Shown: positions 969-11,345 of the stretch, one piece after another | How the letters are laid out: each line of letters opens with the position of its first letter | How positions within the stretch are numbered: position 1 is the stretch's first letter | NCBI GenBank assembly: GCA_902728285.1 | Contig: CACVBU010001358.1 | Span: forward strand, 930,001 to 994,000 | Reading direction: 5' to 3' | DNA from: Clytia hemisphaerica | Lineage: Eukaryota; Cnidaria; Hydrozoa; Leptothecata; Clytiidae | Length of the DNA stretch: 64,000 bases | The notes under the pieces: generated by a model | Databases searched by the model: none | What the model saw: the letters and a program-made list of their open reading frames with translations, nothing else | What the model was told of the DNA's origin: nothing | Program-made: the position numbers and the translations under genes

Positions 969-1014
969 GCGCGGGAAAATCTAAAGGCCGGTCTCCACTT
1001 GCGCGCGCGGGAAA
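969..1014 (+). promoter_or_regulatory. Two E2F-like sites upstream of the alternative SMARCB1 exon
   Basis: The decamer GCGCGGGAAA occurs at 969-978 and again at 1005-1014, each followed by AATCTAAA. It contains the E2F-type core (TTTCCCGC on the other strand). The pair lies about 95-140 bases upstream of the ATG at 1107. Between the copies is GGCCGGTCTCCA, which is also the terminal sequence of the element at 20420-20659, so part of this upstream region may derive from a transposon end. Function is inferred from motif and position only. Confidence 0.35.
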
Positions 1015-1106
1015 ATCTAAATCGAACACTCAAACGTTCGAAATTCGAATTCGAATGTTTTGGGGAATTCGAATGTTTTGAACCGCAAAATTCGAATGTT
1101 TTTGGA

Positions 1107-1934
1107 ATGACTAAAATAAATTCCGAAATTCAGAAAAAAAATCAAATCAGGACAGGATCAGGACGCCTGGCATTGAATTGGAAAATGGCAAGAGAAATCT
1201 ATAATGGAAAATATCCAACAATATATCTTTTGGAAGAGCATGGCGAAAAGTTCATGCTCGGAAGTGATGTCGGTGTATTTATGAACTACTACAAAGGTGC
1301 TCTTTACAAGAAATACCCTTCAATGCATCGAAGAATCTTAACATCAGATGAACGAAGTATTCTAAGTGGATTGAGTATGAGAAAACACAGGTCTTTAACT
1401 AATATGGGGACTATGGTAGTGAGAGCTAGCGAAGCCATGAAAATTATGACTGGTCAAGGAGAGCATTTTCGCAACAAATATACCAAAGCTGCTGCCGAAA
1501 ATAACGAAGCAAAGGAAGCTATTAACGTTGCCTTTTGTAGGGCAAGAGCTCAAAGTAAAGACCTACCTAATCTACGAGAGAATTTAGATTTTTTGCCAGG
1601 TGCAAAAGAAAGAAATTTTGAAGCTATGGCCAGGAGACGTGCAAAACAAGAGACTTGTTATGAATTTTGTCCGAAACTTTTGAATTTTGCGACTCGTCAG
1701 GTTGAATATGCAGCTGACTTGTGTCCTGAATCGACAGTCATGAATAGCGTCTCTCTGATCAACAAACCACCATCTTCCAAATTCTCCGAGGACAAAAGAA
1801 AAAGCAAAAGAACGAACAAAAAGGCGATTGAGAACACAGGAGACAAATCTTCGATTGATGAAAATGTTGAAAATATTGAGGATGATAACGTACCACAGAA
1901 ACCTTTAAAGAAATGTTCGAGTCATTTGTGGTAA
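1107..1934 (+). CDS. Divergent SMARCB1-type winged-helix exon (alternative first exon or truncated paralogue)
   Basis: The ATG at 1107 is the first in the frame; the open frame extends further upstream without one. The protein resembles the N-terminal winged-helix DNA-binding domain of SMARCB1 (residues about 30-120): EKFMLGSDVGVFM, GALYKKYPSMHRR and MVVRASE align with [26 protein letters not shown] and MIVRAKE in the canonical exon 1.2 kb downstream. A lysine-rich, acidic-ended linker follows. The frame closes at TGG TAA (1929-1934), but GGTAAGT there is a strong donor. Splicing after TG at 1930 gives phase 2, identical to the donor of the canonical exon, and joining to 8312 would rebuild the Cys codon and yield a 498-residue SMARCB1 isoform. 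It may instead be a tandem, truncated single-domain paralogue. The homology is clear; the splicing is inferred. Confidence 0.75.
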   Translation: MTKINSEIQKKNQIRTGSGRLALNWKMAREIYNGKYPTIYLLEEHGEKFMLGSDVGVFMNYYKGALYKKYPSMHRRILTSDERSILSGLSMRKHRSLTNMGTMVVRASEAMKIMTGQGEHFRNKYTKAAAENNEAKEAINVAFCRARAQSKDLPNLRENLDFLPGAKERNFEAMARRRAKQETCYEFCPKLLNFATRQVEYAADLCPESTVMNSVSLINKPPSSKFSEDKRKSKRTNKKAIENTGDKSSIDENVENIEDDNVPQKPLKKCSSHLW

Positions 1935-2335
1935 GTTTTTGTCGGGTTTTTGTGTTTTTGAAGGAAAATACTGAAAGGTCTAGAAAAGTGGGAATCGCGG
2001 TCTAACTCGGTCTGATTCCGTAGTCTGGGGATGAGCGGAACAGAAAAACTATTCCGGATAAAATGGAATGTCAAGCAGTAGGGTTCAGCCATGCACGGAA
2101 TAAACCAAAAACCAATATTGCGGCAAAATCTGAGTTGTGAGTTGGTGAAAAGACCAACATTTTGGAGGTTTGTAAATCTTACCTTTTTTCTGCTTCAAAG
2201 ACAACATTTACTGTGGTAAAATTGTACATTTTTCCTTTGGAATTGTTATTCACTGTTCTATACTATTTGAGCAATCTGGCTGGATTCATTATTCGTCAGA
2301 GGAAACTGAGTAACTACTGAAGTAAAACTTTGAAA

Positions 2336-5300
2336 ATGCCACCACTTCAAACATATGGCGAAAAGCCAAAATCTTTTCAACTGAGTGAGGGTAGCGATGA
2401 ACTTTTCATGATTGGAAGTGAAGTTGGAACCTATCTACGGATGATGAGGGGTTCTATTTACAAAAGATATCCCTATTTATGGAAACGAATGGCCAGTGGA
2501 GAAGAACGTAAAAAGATGCACAAATATGCAAACCACCCACTACAAGCACATGTAATGATTGTAAGAGCTAAAGAAATTGATGATTTAATTGAAGGGAAAG
2601 ATGCCCAATTTAAGACTGAAAGTCAACAAGCTGCTGCTGCAAGAGATTCACCCTCTACCAGTAGTCGCAAAACAAGACAGACTGCTGGAAAACAAGAATC
2701 TTTTCTACCAACTCTTGGTCCTAATCATTTGGACGCTGTTCCAGCTGGTACACCTATCAGTAGGCATCGTGTTGGCCAAAAAAGAGTTAAAACATTTCCA
2801 ACATGGTAAGATTTTATTACAACCTTCGTGCTTTTTTAGAGCTATAGAGCTTCAGAGCTTTAAACAGTTTGTTCTGTGCTCATTGAAGCACTGTTGGTGC
2901 TATGGTTTACACAGCTTTTTTAAAGCAGCGTAGGTGTAGGCTTTTTCTCATCTTCAATTCTCTCAAACAAGCAGCGATTTGATGCAAGAGTTATAAGGGA
3001 CATTAAAGTAGTAAAATGTAAACATTGCGCGAACCACGTTTCATTAAAGAGAACATCAAAATCACGTGTCCAAAACAAACTTGTAAAACAATTCAACAAT
3101 CAAAATTAGCCATATTTGGTTTCATTTTTTATTTTGACATGTGACATTTGTTTTGATTTTTTATCCACTGTATACAGTTTGTTTACAAATTTCGCAAGTA
3201 CTGTTATGTCCCTTTAAATTGTTAAGAAAGTACTGCAAAGAATCCTCCAATTGAAGAATTTACTATCATAAATATTTTTTTTTGAAGATTTGGGGCAAAA
3301 AAGTGCATATGGTTTAATTAAAATGGGGAAGATTTGGAAAATTTTCTAAGTTTGGTTTTTGGCACAAATCCCTGTAACTATGGGTGAGCAGCCCACTAAA
3401 AACGAAAGTAAAATTGACCCGCACTCCAAATCCCACAATCTTGATGTCTGTTGATATAGGAGTTTTAGTCTTAACTGTATGTAGAGCAATCGGACTTTAA
3501 GTGATATGAAGTGATGTTTTATGTGACAGTTTCTTACTATATTTTTTTTATTATGGCTGCTAACAGCGAAAAATGCATTTTTCATGGTCTCAATAGCAGC
3601 GATGTCACAGCAGATTTTAAATCTTGTTTAGAATAGAAATGAAATTGAGTTACCAATGTATTTATATTTTTGATTTTATCAATTTTTGGACCTACCTCGG
3701 AGGTCCTATAAATTAACCGATGTCCGTTCGTTCGTCCGTCCGTTCGTCCGTTCGTCTGTCCGTCTGTTACCAGCTTTTCTCAGGATTGTCATTAGTTTTT
3801 TTGATTTTTTGCAAAGATGCAAAATGCCCAAAAACGGAGCCCGATTTTCGAAAAAAATTCATTTCCGGCCGAAAAAAATATGCGGAAAAAACCGGTTTTT
3901 GGCATTTTCTCGAGATTTCATCATTAGTTTTTCTGATTTTTGCACAAGATGCGTATTAGCAATGCCTAAAACACATGGATTAGTCCGATTTTTGAGGAAA
4001 ATTCTATTCCGGCTGAAATGCCGGAAATATCCGGAAATCGCCGTTTTTGCGATTTTCATTGGACTTTTTCCTTATATTTCGTTGTTTTTTCACACAAAAA
4101 AACATTATTTTGTAGCAATCCCAAGGCAAGCATAATGCAGCCTTTTTCGCCGGAAAAGAAGGAAACAAAAAAAAACGGCGGTATTTCTTGAATTTCTGAG
4201 TTGTACTTTATATTTTTTCATTGAAATTTTGACACTGATGCAAAATGGCAATACCTAAAATATACAGAGCCTGATTTTCAATTAACGTACTTTTCCGGCC
4301 GAAAATGCCGGAAAATGCCGGAAAAACTGGTTTTTGGCATTTCTCGAGTTCATCATTAGTTTTTCTGATTTTTGCACAAAGATGCGTATTACAATGTTAA
4401 AACATGGCCTAGTCCGATTTTTGAGAAAAATTCTATTCCGGCTGAAAATGCCGGAAAATATCCTGGAAATCGCCGTTTTGCAGATTTCATCGGACCTTTT
4501 CCTTATATTTCGTTGTTTTCCATAAAAACATATTGATAGCAATGCCCACCATCAAGCATGGTTTATTGTCATAAATGATTTTTGAAGCCGGAACTTTCTA
4601 AAAATCGCCGGAACAGCCTATTTTGCCGGAAAAAACGGTTATTCTTGAATTTTCTCGAGCTGTACTTTATATTTTTTCATGAAATTTGCCACACTGATGC
4701 CAAATGACAATACCTAAAAGTGACGGAGCCCGATTTTCGAAAAATATTTTTTCCCGGCGGAAATGCCAGAAAATATGCCGGAAAAAAACCGTTTTTTTTT
4801 TTACATTTTCTCGAATTTTTCTCTTAGCTTTTTCTGATTTTTTGCAGAAACGATGCGATTTGCAATGCTCAAAACATGGCCGAGTTCGATTTGAGGAAAA
4901 AATTTTTTCCGGTTGAATCCGATCAACCGTCTTTGCAGATTTCATTATATGTTTCCTTGTATTTCTATGTTCTTCACACAAAAACATTATTGATAACAAG
5001 CATCAAGCTGATTCCAATAAAAAACTGATTTTTGCGACAGAACTTTCTATTAATTTTTCCCTACAACCCTTCCCTCTCCCCCCATCAACAATCAATGATG
5101 AATTTATTGCGTTATGCATTTTCGCTAAACGATATATTTTCTGACTGATTTTTTTCTCCTCGCATTGCTATCTAACTTTCATCATCAGGTAGGTCCATTC
5201 AGCATCTAGCTTGTTTATGTTTGAATTATATTTGAAATCAAAAAAGTAGCAAGTCAGTTCTGTGACATACAGCTCTTTTCAATGGGCTCTCAAATTGAGT

Positions 5301-8300
5301 GCTTCAACTGCTTTACATGTAATGAATTATGAAAATGATTTTTTGTTTATGCATTGTATTTTGTCATTCTTTATTTTATTAAGAGAAAGGAATGATGAGG
5401 TAAGGAGGGGATCAATGATTTAGATTAGAAATAGTTCGTTGATTAATAGCTAATTTATGTGGAATCAACAATCCTGCCTTTCTTTTTCTGGTTAACAGAA
5501 TCAAAAGGATGAAACCAGTATTTTGGAGCACTGAATTTATAGGGGGCTAGAACTCCAGTAAAAGCCATCTGGAATTGGCTGGTAGTGGATATTTTCTTTT
5601 TGTATACATCAGCCATTAGTTTTTTGGAAGTTGCTAAAAAGTCTTTTTTTATAAATTTAACTCCTGGTAGAATCATGCATGGTATAAGTAAGAAGTAGGA
5701 AGACCCCCTTAAGAGCCATTTTTTTTAAAAATCTTCAGAATAAAGAAAGTGTGATACCTCACCCTCTTAGATTTTGATGAAATTTTGACCAAATGATCCA
5801 TCACACAAGAAAATAAGACCATGAAAATTTCACCTTGATATCTCAAGTAGTTTTGAAGATACAGCGTCTCAAAGATAGGCTACTTAGCGAAAATTGACCC
5901 CTAAAAATCATGAACTCTGGTGGGGAGCGATTTTGAAGCCAATGAATTTTTATTCAAGTAATTAGAAGCTGATTTACAGTGGATTTCAAGAACTTTTTGT
6001 AGGAATCAGAAAAAAAAATTGAGTTCCAAAACTTTTCCCCGAAAATCTTTCCTCTCCGAGAGGCTTCAACTTGTGTAAATCTGGGTTTAGAAGCCTTTTA
6101 GCTGTCTGCTGGAGGTCCTTGGAGCTTTTTTGAAGCAACTTTTGCCTGGAGTGGTTTACTGGTCGGTTTTGGCCAAAAAATAAACATTTTCAGTATTTCT
6201 ATTTGCGTAACCGTCAAAAAATGGGGGCACAAATTGCTTTTTTGCAGCTGGAGCAAAATTCAAGATGGCGTATCTTTTTGACCCCTACAAATTTTTTGAA
6301 ACTCAGTATGCTTTCTTAGTAGGTCTAGTTTTCCCCTCAAAACATCTCAGTGGGGCTTGAAGTCTCTTAAAGATATGACGATTGAAAATTTGCTAACTTC
6401 GTTGTTTTTTCCCTCCTAAAAATGCTAAATCAGGCCCACTTAAGGGCTCTAAAGGTAAATTCTTGTCAAAACTATTGGTTGCTCTTCTCTAGCCAACTAA
6501 TCATTGGCATTAAGGGAAACAACTGTAAAAAAAAATTCAGGTCATTTCCATTAACCGATGACATTTTATGGACTGTTTCTTTATTTTTAAGTATAGAATA
6601 TGTAAAAAAATGAGACTGACATCTGGCCTTTCCTACCATTCCAGGGCCTATATTTTCAGGAAAAAGCCTCAACCTTTCACAGTTTGGTGAATATTATTCT
6701 TAAAATATAAGCAGGTTATTCAATAAATGGGTTTAACAGTACTTAATTCCTATTCAAAAACTTTTTAGATCATTCAGAAATCTACTTTGACAATAATTTG
6801 CGCTTTACCGCAAAATTTCTAAGTCCAAGTGTCGTGATTAACTTTAGACTGTCCAATATCTCTATATTTGTGTACACTGACAGCCTTACTTGTTGATTCT
6901 TAAATAACTAAGCAACATTACTAGGGTGATATTTTATGAGATACTGCAAACAATGATGTTTAAATCTTCTGGACAAGAAATATTGGACAGTCTAAAGTTA
7001 AGTTAATCACGACACTTGGACTTAGAAATTTTGCGGTAAAGCGCAAATTATTGTCAAAGTAGGATTTCTGAATGAGTCTCTAAAAAGTTTTTGAATAGGA
7101 ATTAAGTACTGTTAAACCCATTTAGTTGAAGTAACTGCTTATATTAAGAAAATATTCACCAAACTGTGAAAGGTTGAGGCTTTTCCTGAAAAATATAGGC
7201 CCTGGAATGGTAGGAAAGGCCAGATGTCAGTCTCATTTTTTTACATAATTCTATACTTTTAAAAATAAAGAAACAGTCATAAAATGTCATCTGTTAATGG
7301 AAATGACCTGAATTTTTTTACAGTGTTCCCTTAATGCCAATGATTAGTGGCTAGAGAAGATCAACCAATATTTTGACAAGAATTTACCTTTAGAGCCCTT
7401 AAGTGGGCCTGATTTAGCATTTTAGGAGGGAAAAAAACAACGAAGTTAAGCAAATTTTCAATCGATCATATCTTTAAGAGACTTCAAGGCCCCACTGAGA
7501 TTTTTTGAGGTTATAAACTAGACCTACTAAGAAAGCATTACTGAAAGTTTCAAAAAAATTTGTAGGGGGTTCAAAAAGATACGCCATCTTGAATTTTGCT
7601 CCAGATCTGCCAAAATAGCAATTTTTTCGGGCCATTTTTGACGGTTACGCAAAAATAGAAATCCTGAAAATGTTATTTTTGTGGCCAAAAACCCACCAGT
7701 AAACCACTCCAGGTCAAAATTTTGCTTCAAAAAAAGTCTCAAGGACCATCAGCAGACAGCTAAAAGTGCTTCCAAAACCAGATTACACAAACGTTTGAAG
7801 CCCTCTACAGGAGGTGCTAGAGATTTTTGGGGAAAATTTTGGGAGACTCAATTTGATTTTTTCTGATTCCCTACAAAAAGTTCTTGAAATCACTGTAACT
7901 GTAAATCAGCTTTCTAATGTACTGAATAAAAATTCATTGGCTTTCAAAATCTGCTCCCCACCAGAGTTCATGATTTTTAGGGGTCAATTTCCGCTTAGTA
8001 GCCTATCTTTGAGACGCTGTATCTTCAAAACTACTTGAGATATCAAGGTGAAATTTTCAGGGTCTTATTTTCTTGTGTGATGGATCATTTGGTCAAAATT
8101 TCATCAAAATCCAAGAGGATGAGGTATCACACCCTGAAGACTCTTAAAAAAAATGGCTCTTAAGTGGTAACCCCTTAAAAAGAAATAATTTTGAAATGTT
8201 TGCACATAACTTATGAAGTGCCTCTTGTAGTCTTCCTTCCAAACAGCAGTGATTTTGAATCGATATTTATTAAGCATTTGACTCTTTAAACCTCTTAATT

Positions 8301-11300
8301 TGTTCCCTTAGTTACGATGATCATGACATGGCAGCTATACACGAAGCGGCTAAACAAAATGAAGAACTCATCCCAATACGACTCGATATTGAAGTTGATG
8401 GGCAGAAACTTCGTGACACATTTACATGGAACAAAAATGGTAGGTAACAAACAACAAGAAACTATTGAATTTTGTAACAACAGCAACAAGAAATAACCAG
8501 CTAGTTTTTATATTAAGTACTAGTAATCGTATGGTTTGGAGTGCAATTAACGATTAATCACGAGTAACAAAGGAGAAAATAGTAATTTGCACAAGTCCGA
8601 AGAACGAGTGCAAATTACGGAATTTTCTCCTTTGTTACGAGTGATTAATCGTTAATTGCACGACAAAACATACGATTCCGAGGTAATCGTCAGTAAATAA
8701 TCATTAGTAAATCATAGTTTTTTTAGAAAAAGGGAACATTTTTGACATTCGAATTGCAATGCAACTTATGTACACAAAGCGAATTTCTTTGTTCTTTTTT
8801 ATATTGAAGAAAAAAAATGTCTTTGTTTTTTATTATATAGTAAAAAAAGTCTCTGACACAGGACTTGGGAGAGAAAAGAATAAGGGGACAAAAGTGTCCC
8901 CCCGCCGAAGAGTGCAAAAAGTGGTAATAGTGCAATTAACGATTAATCGCACTCCTCTAAACCAATCAGATTCGAGTAATTTTGCACGGCTGACGATTAC
9001 ATTATAGAATCGGTATAGAATGTTATAATGTGTTATTAACTGGTTGAAGTAAAAGTCGGTCAATACAAGAAAATTCGCTATTTTAATTGGTTCTCTAGCA
9101 GTCAATATAATACGGTAAAGACCACTTCAGTGCTTTGGTCATACTGACGATGATTTTGAAAAGGGAAATTTGTTTTATAGAAAAGTTTCGTCAGTCTGAA
9201 CATGATTTAAAAAACTGACGTTCGTTGCAATGACTTCCCATAAGAAAGTGACGTCAGAATGAATCAAAGAAAATATTGGGTAAAAAAGAAACGAAAAAAT
9301 CATGGAAAATGCATTTTTTTGGCCAGAAACACACAAAGAATGTTCACCAGTTAATAAACACAATAATATAACTGTTTTCTTGGTCAATACGTAAAATATT
9401 GACCTTATCCTGCGCACAGACCTCGCAAGCTCGGTCTGTACTTCGGCTGCGGTCAATATTTTACCGTATTGACCTCCAAACCAGTTATTATTGTATTATT
9501 AAAGAATCGGTAATTCTGAAAAGAAAACTCTCTTAGAGTATATTTGAAAAAATCGCAGTTACCAACAACAAACTTCTCTCACAGGAGAACAAGCTCAGAT
9601 TCATTTTCTTTGAGGTTTTGCTTTCATTTTCAATAAATTTGTTGACATTATCTTCTTGGTGAATACAAGTAAATTCGCCTTGTTTTCATGCGAAACCACG
9701 GTGATTTTGACTATAATTGCGACGTTTTAAAATTACCATATAATTCTTCTTAGAATTAGCTACACTATATAACATAGCTGGCCCCTTTAAAGTGAGGCTA
9801 CTGTGCATTGCTTATGGCTTTGTTACCTTTCAGAGTGCTGTTTAGAAGGTGTTTTACATTTAGACCGATTTGAGACTTACAAATCTGTTATATTTTGCAG
9901 AAATTTTGTAAAGTTGGAAAGATACTAAATCTGAACCCAATATAAAAGTATGATATTAATATTAATTCTCTCTCTCTTTTCGTTTCCTTTACAGAGAAAC
10001 TGATCACATTGGAATCATTTGCAGAAGTATTATGTGACGATCTTGATTTACCAACGCAGAGTTTTGTTCCTCTGATCGTCACCAATATGCAGCAGCAAAT
10101 CAAGCAACATGGTGTAGAATCGGAAATCACGCTCTCTGAAATGACTGACCAAAGAGTGGTAATCAAGGTGTGTACTTTTTTTTATAGGAACCAATAAATT
10201 CGGCTCAGCCTCGGCTGTTGGTAATATTTCGAGGTTTATAGGTTTCAAGTGTTCTTTGTTTGCTTGGTTCGATTACTTATGGAGACTAAAAGAGTACTTT
10301 GATAGCTTTAATTTCTCAGCAATTTCTGAAATTTTAGGCTCAGCTCGTTCTTTTTTTTGAGAATTTGCTTCGGCTAAATTAAATTTCAGCCTTATGTTCT
10401 TTTAAAATTGAATTTTCTTTTGTAGAAGTTAAAGAATTTTCCTGGCCTGATTTTAAAATTTTGAAATAGCTGAAATGAAGTATCGCTTTCAGTTTGGATT
10501 ATTTATTCGCAAAAGTAATTAAACAGCTTTTTTTTTACGTTTTAGTTGAATCTTCATGTCGGTAATGTTTCGTTACAAGATCAATTCGAATGGGACATGT
10601 CAGATCCTCTAAACAACCCAGAACAATTCGCTCTCTCTTTGTGTACAGAACTCGGTCTAGGTGGTGAATTCGTTACAGCTGTTGCTTACAGTATACGCGG
10701 CCAACTGAACTGGAACAAGAAAACATACGTGTTTAGTGAACATCCTTTACCTACAGTTGAAGTTGCCCTTCGCACTGGAATGGATATTGATAAATGGTGT
10801 CCGTATCTCGAAACACTGACAGACGCAGAAATGGAAAAGAAACTGAGAGACCAAGACAGAAACACAAGGTCTGTAGTTTTAATAATAAGTAGTTGGTTTT
10901 TTTTTGATTTGCTGTTGCAGCCGAGAAAACAAAATTGAATGGCTTGATTAATAATAAGAGTCTCAATTCCCCAAAATTAGCCTAATTTAGAACGTATTGC
11001 TGCCTCGTCAAAATAAACTCCTTACCAAATTTAACCTTTTTCTAGAATTTTTACTGTTCGCCAGAATTAGTTCCCTCAAGATAATCCCTAATCACATACC
11101 TGCGTCAATATTTTACGTGAACAATCTGAAATTACTGAACAAAAAACTGTTTTGAAACGAGGAAACCCCTAGTTTGTAGCTGTGACTTACTACTGCGTAC
11201 TACAGAGAAAACTTAGATTGGGTAATGGGGTTCTCTATGGATTCTCCATTTCTCACTTTCATTGATGATTGTCTGATTTTCAAATTTTTTTTTCAGGCGT

Positions 11301-11345
11301 ATGAGACGTTTAGCGAATACTGCACCCTATTCCTTGCAAATATAA
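2336..11345 (+). CDS. SMARCB1: SMARCB1 / SNF5 / INI1, core subunit of BAF (SWI/SNF) chromatin remodellers
   Basis: Exons are 2336-2805, 8312-8439, 9995-10167, 10546-10868 and 11297-11345. All junctions are GT-AG with consistent phases and give 380 residues (human 385). Exon 1 encodes the winged-helix domain ([26 protein letters not shown]) and the HLDAVP linker. Exons 2-3 encode SNF5 repeat 1 ([28 protein letters not shown]). Exon 4 encodes repeat 2 ([38 protein letters not shown]). The last exons encode the basic C-terminal helix ([20 protein letters not shown]), which in the human protein contacts the nucleosome acidic patch. The protein ends APYSLQI rather than APAW. The start at ATG 2336 follows the usual short N-terminus; the TTG six bases upstream is not needed. 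Intron 1 (5.5 kb) carries most of the transposons. The gene acts in the nucleus. Confidence 0.97.
2938..3390 (+). repeat. Dispersed repeat (inverted copy at 56405-56670)
   Basis: TTTTTCTCATCTTCAATT, GATGCAAGAGTTA and CCCTGTAACTATGGG all recur in reverse complement and in the matching order near 56.4-56.7 kb. The copy here is interrupted at 2997-3219 by a short element that the other copy lacks. It lies in intron 1 of SMARCB1. Confidence 0.6.
2997..3219. mobile_element. Short inverted-repeat element nested in the dispersed repeat
   Basis: The ends are AAGGGACATTAA and the near-complement TTATGTCCCTTTA. The related copy at 56.6 kb runs straight across this position (GAGTTAGATTG in place of GAGTTATAAGGG...TTTAAATTG), which supports insertion of about 220 bp. 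It has no coding capacity. Confidence 0.55.
3687..5199. mobile_element. 1.5-kb non-autonomous DNA element with internal tandem repeats
   Basis: The termini are complementary: GGACCTACCT at 3687 and AGGTAGGTCC ending near 5199. Just inside the left end is a (TCCGTTCG)-like simple repeat at 3720-3770. The body contains about three imperfect repeats of roughly 400-450 bp, each with GCCGGAAAAT/CCGGAAATCGCCG motifs and a CTCGAGWTTCATCATTAG-type segment. Short reading frames here are repeat translations, not genes. It lies within SMARCB1 intron 1. Confidence 0.6.
5708..8164. mobile_element. 2.46-kb fold-back (long inverted-repeat) element in SMARCB1 intron 1
   Basis: Two arms of about 1.15-1.2 kb are imperfect inverted copies of each other. 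The outer ends are CTTAAGAGCCATTTTTTTT and its complement. Inner landmarks such as GTCGTGATTAACTTTAGACTG (left, to about 6862) and its complement (right, from about 6976) leave a loop of roughly 115 bp. The arms match throughout with scattered substitutions and small indels. Since it lies in a transcribed intron, the pre-mRNA could fold into a hairpin over 1 kb long. No protein is encoded. Confidence 0.85.
8524..9000. mobile_element. Palindromic short element (hairpin 8524-8677) plus related half-copy to 9000
   Basis: AATCGTATG at 8524 and CATACGATT ending at 8677 bound a near-perfect palindrome containing GTGCAATTAACGATTAATCAC and its complement. A second GTGCAATTAACGATTAATC occurs at about 8930, followed by CTGACGATTAC near 9000, complementary to GTAATCGTCAG at about 8682. 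This looks like two overlapping or nested copies in intron 2 of SMARCB1. Confidence 0.6.
9016..9502. mobile_element. Short inverted-repeat element with 10-bp flanking duplication
   Basis: AGAATCGGTA occurs exactly at 9006-9015 and 9503-9512. The inner ends contain GTGTTATTAACTGGTT and the complementary AACCAGTTATTATTG, and paired TGACC/GGTCAATA blocks lie inside. A 9-10 bp duplication is typical of Mutator-like elements; the assignment is inferred. It lies in intron 2 of SMARCB1. Confidence 0.6.

Follow-up and report, generated by a model that had tools for sequence, protein, structure and literature searches.

Does a single SMARCB1 gene carry two interchangeable first exons, each coding for a winged-helix domain of its own? 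The question is raised by a 64,000-nucleotide (nt) stretch of the genome of the hydrozoan Clytia hemisphaerica (hereafter the window; C928:930001-994000, on contig CACVBU010001358.1), in an assembly (GCA_902728285.1) that was searched over 417 Mb and 951 contigs. Here the winged helix of SMARCB1, which belongs to the core of SWI/SNF and acts as a tumour suppressor, is encoded by two frames on the + strand, with 401 nt between the stop of the upstream frame (ORF1) and the start of the canonical first coding exon. The locus holds both exons, in a shared splice phase and with an open joined frame, and the assembly holds a single SNF5-repeat region. We give ORF1 an even chance of being an alternative first coding exon of SMARCB1; the fuller proposal, that two mutually exclusive first exons swap the whole winged helix in an old, selectively kept choice that lets a subunit with one gene copy in Clytia yield two kinds of SWI/SNF complex differing in their DNA or nucleosome contact, falls in our estimate just short of even. 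Alternative first exons are the best single reading because no second SNF5-repeat match was found in the assembly and because the ORF1 donor is strong. No report of alternative SMARCB1 winged-helix exons was found among the listed titles and abstract starts of open-licence papers, a collection that leaves subscription journals mostly outside and is thus weak evidence of novelty.

The ORF1 frame is open over 275 codons (1107-1930). The original prediction treated this whole span as the exon; the open frame stands, and its start is corrected to Met 1185, which is likely the true initiator, with Met 1107 as an upstream alternative. Met 1185 lies in the context AAAATGG and falls opposite the start Met of canonical and human SMARCB1 in the alignment, and the distance from start to domain is similar in all three. 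The coding exon would thus run from 1185 to 1930 on the + strand, comprising an INI1-type winged-helix domain (1215-1457; contig positions 931215-931457), a linker (1458-1646) that can be aligned by BLASTP, phmmer and a two-sequence profile to the SMARCB1 linker with its motif LPxL...LDxxP...RRxK, and a tail of 94 residues (1647-1930) without detectable homology apart from a weak alignment (TCYE with TCYD) where the tail begins.

That both 1107-1930 and the canonical exon (2336-2805, + strand) encode the SNF5 N-terminal winged helix, as had been predicted, was borne out by the Pfam family PF21459 (INI1_DNA-bd; curated cut-off 27 bits), which ORF1 matches with 70.9 bits (E 1e-19) and the canonical exon with 98 bits (E 3.5e-28), a homology well outside what chance would give. 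Against solved structures, ORF1 matched three distinct chains at E <=10, all of them human SMARCB1 (best E 5.3e-13) and none of them PHF10, though the library includes PHF10 chains; the canonical exon matches the same human SMARCB1 chain at E 8.9e-30. ORF1 and the canonical exon are 26% identical over 155 amino acids (aa) by BLASTP, and 26-30% identical across analyses at the protein level. Within the winged helix alone, 33/92 positions are identical between ORF1 and human, 27/91 between ORF1 and the canonical exon and 47/88 between the canonical exon and human.

PMC4509781 argues that the SMARCB1 winged helix binds DNA, probably without sequence choice, and names DNA-contact or wing residues, seven of which were compared (an eighth, T88, was dropped, as the numbering used here gave no Thr at that position in human). 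Four of these are identical in ORF1 (S30, K45, R52 and T56), two are similar (E31D and R40K) and R37 is replaced by Asn; the canonical exon is identical at five of the seven. The schwannomatosis positions P14, P48 and R53 are all kept in ORF1. We infer the winged-helix fold of ORF1 from the Pfam and sequence matches. With its open frame and the residues it keeps, ORF1 very likely encodes a domain that folds, perhaps with a changed DNA contact.

The two exons also end alike. Their donors read GTG/GTAAGT at 1931 (the hexamer spanning 1931-1936) and ATG/GTAAGA at 2806 (a slash marks the exon border); both are in phase 2, and each frame runs next into the TAA of the donor itself, which at ORF1 (1932-1934) is an in-frame stop if the transcript is left unspliced. 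Joined to SMARCB1 exon 2 (8312-8439), whose acceptor is common to both candidate first exons, either donor gives TG+T, a Cys codon, followed by YDDHD, and both joined products are open to the end (380 aa for the canonical form, 472 aa for the ORF1 form from Met 1185). On this point the original prediction, that both exons end TG/GTAAG with an in-frame TAA made by the donor and rebuild the same Cys at 8312, agrees with the sequence and the joined frames. A simple, general donor matrix was applied to both strands of the window, which contain 6466 GT dinucleotides; among these the 1931 donor ranked 24, compared with 65 for the canonical donor at 2806, 72 for 8440 and 34 for 10168 (10869 was left out). 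Only 21 of the 7370 stop triplets in the window lie inside a donor scoring at least as high as that at 1931, and 10 of the 249 open frames of at least 60 codons end inside GTRAG, both SMARCB1 frames included. One of the four canonical donors (2806) would likewise stop the frame at once. If ORF1 is spliced at 1931, a stop inside the donor is ordinary; if it is not, these counts make it a coincidence of about 0.3 to 4%. Splicing of ORF1 is favoured mainly because a stop inside so good a donor would otherwise be a coincidence, and since the idea of splicing arose after the motif had been seen, that figure is no clean test.

What could such a donor be spliced to? The SNF5-repeat family has two matches in the assembly, both in canonical SMARCB1 exons, so that ORF1 is without a detected SNF5 half of its own, and two SNF5 repeats lie downstream of it only if 1930 is spliced to 8312. 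The repeat region includes exon 3 (9995-10167) and exon 4 (10546-10868), and the last coding exon follows at 11297-11345, all on the + strand. INI1_DNA-bd has four matches at E <=10 across the assembly, and the two above the cut-off are ORF1 and the canonical exon; a search with ORF1 itself found three places, the third at E 5.9. Fourteen control genomes were silent in both family searches and are therefore uninformative as controls. Canonical intron 1 (2806-8311) gave no match at E <=10 to the SMARCB1 and ORF1 proteins (no protein-family scan was made there). The partner site at 8312 was picked for its role as acceptor in the canonical gene, and not because of acceptor scores.

If ORF1 does serve as an alternative first exon, its transcript would arise from an upstream promoter of its own, with coding beginning near 1185, and would carry a second, diverged winged helix of SMARCB1 type with a longer linker. 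Splicing from 1930 to 8312 would yield a SMARCB1 of about 472 aa that has the same SNF5 repeats and C-terminus and another DNA-binding domain, and the canonical first exon at 2336 would start a separate transcript with a product of 380 aa. The ORF1 form may then enter a second kind of BAF/PBAF complex, where it might contact DNA or the nucleosome in an altered way.

The persistence of the ORF1 frame bears on its history. In neutral simulations (5000 per distance, indels not counted) the canonical exon stayed open in 9.8% of cases at 0.1 substitutions/site, 1.4% at 0.2, 0.6% at 0.3, 0.1% at 0.5 and 0.02% at 1.0. That the ORF1 frame is intact despite an identity of 26-30% suggests that the exon has been maintained by selection. 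By its identities in the winged helix ORF1 carries no mark of recent copying from the neighbouring exon. It shares 11 sites with the canonical exon only and 16 with human only, and the best four-sequence tree pairs the canonical exon with human, the grouping of ORF1 with the canonical exon not being rejected (AU 0.173). With four sequences and long branches, the tree leaves the age of ORF1 unsettled. We rejected a dispersed repeat or transposon, as the ORF1 DNA is single in the assembly; six other matches there cover 28 to 61 nt and fall within query positions 28-159 (window 977-1108), the upstream part of the query. No relatives were found in viral contigs (searched with ORF1 and with a two-sequence alignment) or in prokaryote genome contigs (searched with the alignment), which is uninformative for animals.

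Several observations count against ORF1 as an alternative first exon, besides the change of the contact residue R37 to Asn. Counted with the looser GTRAG, 142 of the 7370 stop triplets of the window lie inside a donor, which makes the coincidence less rare. Among acceptors, the site at 2201 (score 3.44, the best between 1931 and 2336) scores as well as 8312 (3.07; 10546 scores 3.14), and ten sites between 1945 and 8311, all within intron 1, outscore 2201, with values up to 6.98. Joins to nine of these ten stop within 20 codons, and the join to site 3784 (6.41), which lies in a stretch of degenerate repeats, is open over all 101 codons examined. Demonstrable homology between ORF1 and the canonical exon stops near ORF1 residue 180, which leaves 94 residues up to the donor, and no counterpart of those 94 residues in the canonical exon was detectable by BLASTP or a two-sequence profile; their one Pfam match (14.1 bits) is below its cut-off of 25. 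An end-anchored alignment of the last residues before both donors gave p 0.29 to 0.57, so that homology up to the donor was not found. With tblastn, the ORF1 match is extended by TCYE vs TCYD, which crosses the canonical junction without an intron and, if taken at face value, would make the 1931 donor non-homologous to the 2806 donor. The extension is not significant (p = 0.074, 0.076, 0.116 and 0.197 at four gap costs, with about 0.07 at the stricter ones) and is a hint only; a retrocopy reading through the canonical junction is, at p 0.074 to 0.197, not claimed.

Codon use was scored by leave-one-out, which gave -0.004 to 0.226 for 10 presumed coding stretches and -0.382 to 0.206 for 46 presumed non-coding frames. 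From 1185 onward the three parts of ORF1 score 0.083, 0.116 and 0.041, exceeding 45 of the 46 non-coding open frames (the canonical first exon scores 0.042), and in the tail, with its 0.041, two alternative frames score higher (0.110 and 0.113), a further point on the unfavourable side. As the presumed non-coding 957-1106 scores 0.171, the codon score is unreliable at ORF1 and leaves the matter undecided. What had been predicted holds in part: the two SMARCB1-type winged helices are intact and the donors match in phase, and the demonstrable homology falls 94 residues short of the donor, with the tail lacking a counterpart, a rival acceptor at 2201 and the hint of a match across the junction all speaking against alternative first exons. 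The identical TG/GTAAG may stem from a common ancestor, the linker having been enlarged, or from chance.

The absence of homology at the donor end, together with its continuation through the linker, counts in favour of a separate winged-helix-only paralogue of SMARCB1, one that lacks SNF5 repeats, stops with the TAA at 1932-1934 and receives its poly(A) tail ahead of the canonical gene. We consider such a gene unlikely, if still a serious contender. It might have its own promoter or be the upstream gene of a two-gene transcript, and its product might work by itself or be a competitor of SMARCB1 for DNA or partners. Its frame does end in a real stop, an AATAAA follows at 2099-2104, and the pyrimidine-rich, acceptor-like site at 2201, 266 nt past the stop, is a good one and could take a trans-spliced leader. 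However, chance alone gives at least one AATAAA in 403 nt with probability 0.40, making this possible polyadenylation signal no better than chance, and the stop falls inside a donor that is among the best in the window. A Hydra-type spliced-leader pattern with <=3 mismatches had no match in the assembly, although spliced leaders differ between hydrozoans. The 2201 site, the first base after CCTTTTTTCTGCTTCAAAG/ACAAC, can also be taken as a partner of the 1931 donor within the SMARCB1 leader. A join of 1930 to 2201 (or the use of 2300) would then leave ORF1 ending in a TGA ahead of canonical SMARCB1; the join removes 270 nt and gives TG+A, an immediate stop, at an acceptor scoring 3.44 vs 3.07 for 8312. 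The winged-helix-only frame would sit upstream in the mRNA and limit or regulate SMARCB1 translation. This we hold to be quite improbable: from an mRNA with so long an upstream frame little SMARCB1 would be expected to be made, such an mRNA should also be open to nonsense-mediated decay, and 2.6% of the AG sites of the window score at least as high as 2201, so a chance site would not be rare.

The original prediction had kept a truncated paralogue in reserve. That fallback survives as the winged-helix-only protein just described; as a neutral, still-open relic of a tandem copy it becomes very improbable. ORF1 has diverged and has lost one of the seven contact or wing residues, as a relic might. 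Yet most core residues are retained, and neutral simulations rarely leave the canonical exon open (0.1% at 0.5 substitutions/site) while the protein identity is 26-30%. An origin from PHF10/BAF45a, rather than SMARCB1, is scarcely credible. PHF10 has a homologous winged-helix domain, according to PMC4509781, and ORF1 scores higher against human PHF10 (14.9 bits) than does the canonical exon (5.8), but the scores of ORF1 rise to 53.4 bits with human SMARCB1 and to 49.0 with the canonical exon, and Clytia has a separate PHF10 locus with a linker exon of its own (C342:477840-477965, 52% identical, the best of five matches); upstream of it, the first part of the PHF10 winged helix is weakly matched (L015:6360-6461, E 0.024). 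On the bit scores and the separate locus, we rejected this origin.

Many BAF subunits have been diversified by paralogues. ORF1 resembles the metazoan SMARCB1/INI1/SNF5 winged helix (PF21459) in domain, start position, linker motif and splice phase, and it lies directly before the gene; it differs in its identity of 26% to the copy in the same genome, in Asn at R37, in its longer linker with 94 additional residues and in having no SNF5 repeats unless spliced. In human SMARCB1, a variable stretch of 27 nt probably falls, by the exon borders, within the winged-helix domain. According to PMC12343709, the two main human isoforms, 1 and 2, have a long or a short exon 2 and differ by 27 nt of it, which is likewise a splice choice altering the N-terminal part of SMARCB1. 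Those isoforms keep or skip the last 27 nt of one exon, however, whereas the Clytia case would swap a whole domain. PHF10/BAF45a, a winged-helix-bearing PBAF subunit, offers another likeness, having four isoforms, partly differing by 47 N-terminal residues, that are alternatively incorporated into PBAF (PMC5514133); these variants differ by the 47 N-terminal residues and the C-terminus, and not by a second winged helix. For the winged-helix-only gene as part of a two-gene transcript, a model is offered by PMC3273482, where the one tested Hydra operon, RFC140/flp, has 417 nt from stop codon to trans-splice acceptor. Like ORF1 and SMARCB1, these two genes stand head-to-tail and are separated by a few hundred nt that include a putative polyadenylation signal and a pyrimidine-rich acceptor, but they are unrelated to each other and their trans-splicing was shown.

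Other features of the locus may be recorded here. Just upstream of ORF1, the unit GCGCGGGAAAATCTAAA occurs twice (969-1021), each time with TTTCCCGC on the minus strand (at 971 and 1007); the sequence between and around the two units recurs in short form across the assembly. TTTCCCGC is E2F-like, and the two minus-strand sites at first resembled a promoter sign; they were not used as one, as they lie partly in a short repeated stretch. Positions 3680-5000 hold several families of degenerate direct repeats whose basic units are TGCCGGAAAA...TTTTTGGCATTTTCTCGAG. SMARCB1 intron 1 also contains a large fold-back (5708-8164) whose two arms (5708-6863 and 6976-8164) show about 90% complementarity; it stops some 150 nt short of the 8312 acceptor, and a long hairpin in the transcript is possible there. 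Intron 2 has a 61-nt inverted repeat (8520-8580 with 8622-8682) and a 20-nt word, AGTGCAATTAACGATTAATC, at 8540 and 8929 (8929-8948). Elsewhere in the assembly, an innexin-like cluster at C94:1071896-1130703 accounts for 10 of its 42 innexin matches, which point to an animal genome. A GFP search gave no match, its control being silent as well.

The role of the SMARCB1 winged helix is still unsettled, and only one SNF5-repeat gene was found in the Clytia assembly. A SMARCB1 whose winged helix is swapped in nature, or else a winged-helix protein made separately from a neighbouring frame, would, if true, be nature's own experiment on what this domain contributes.

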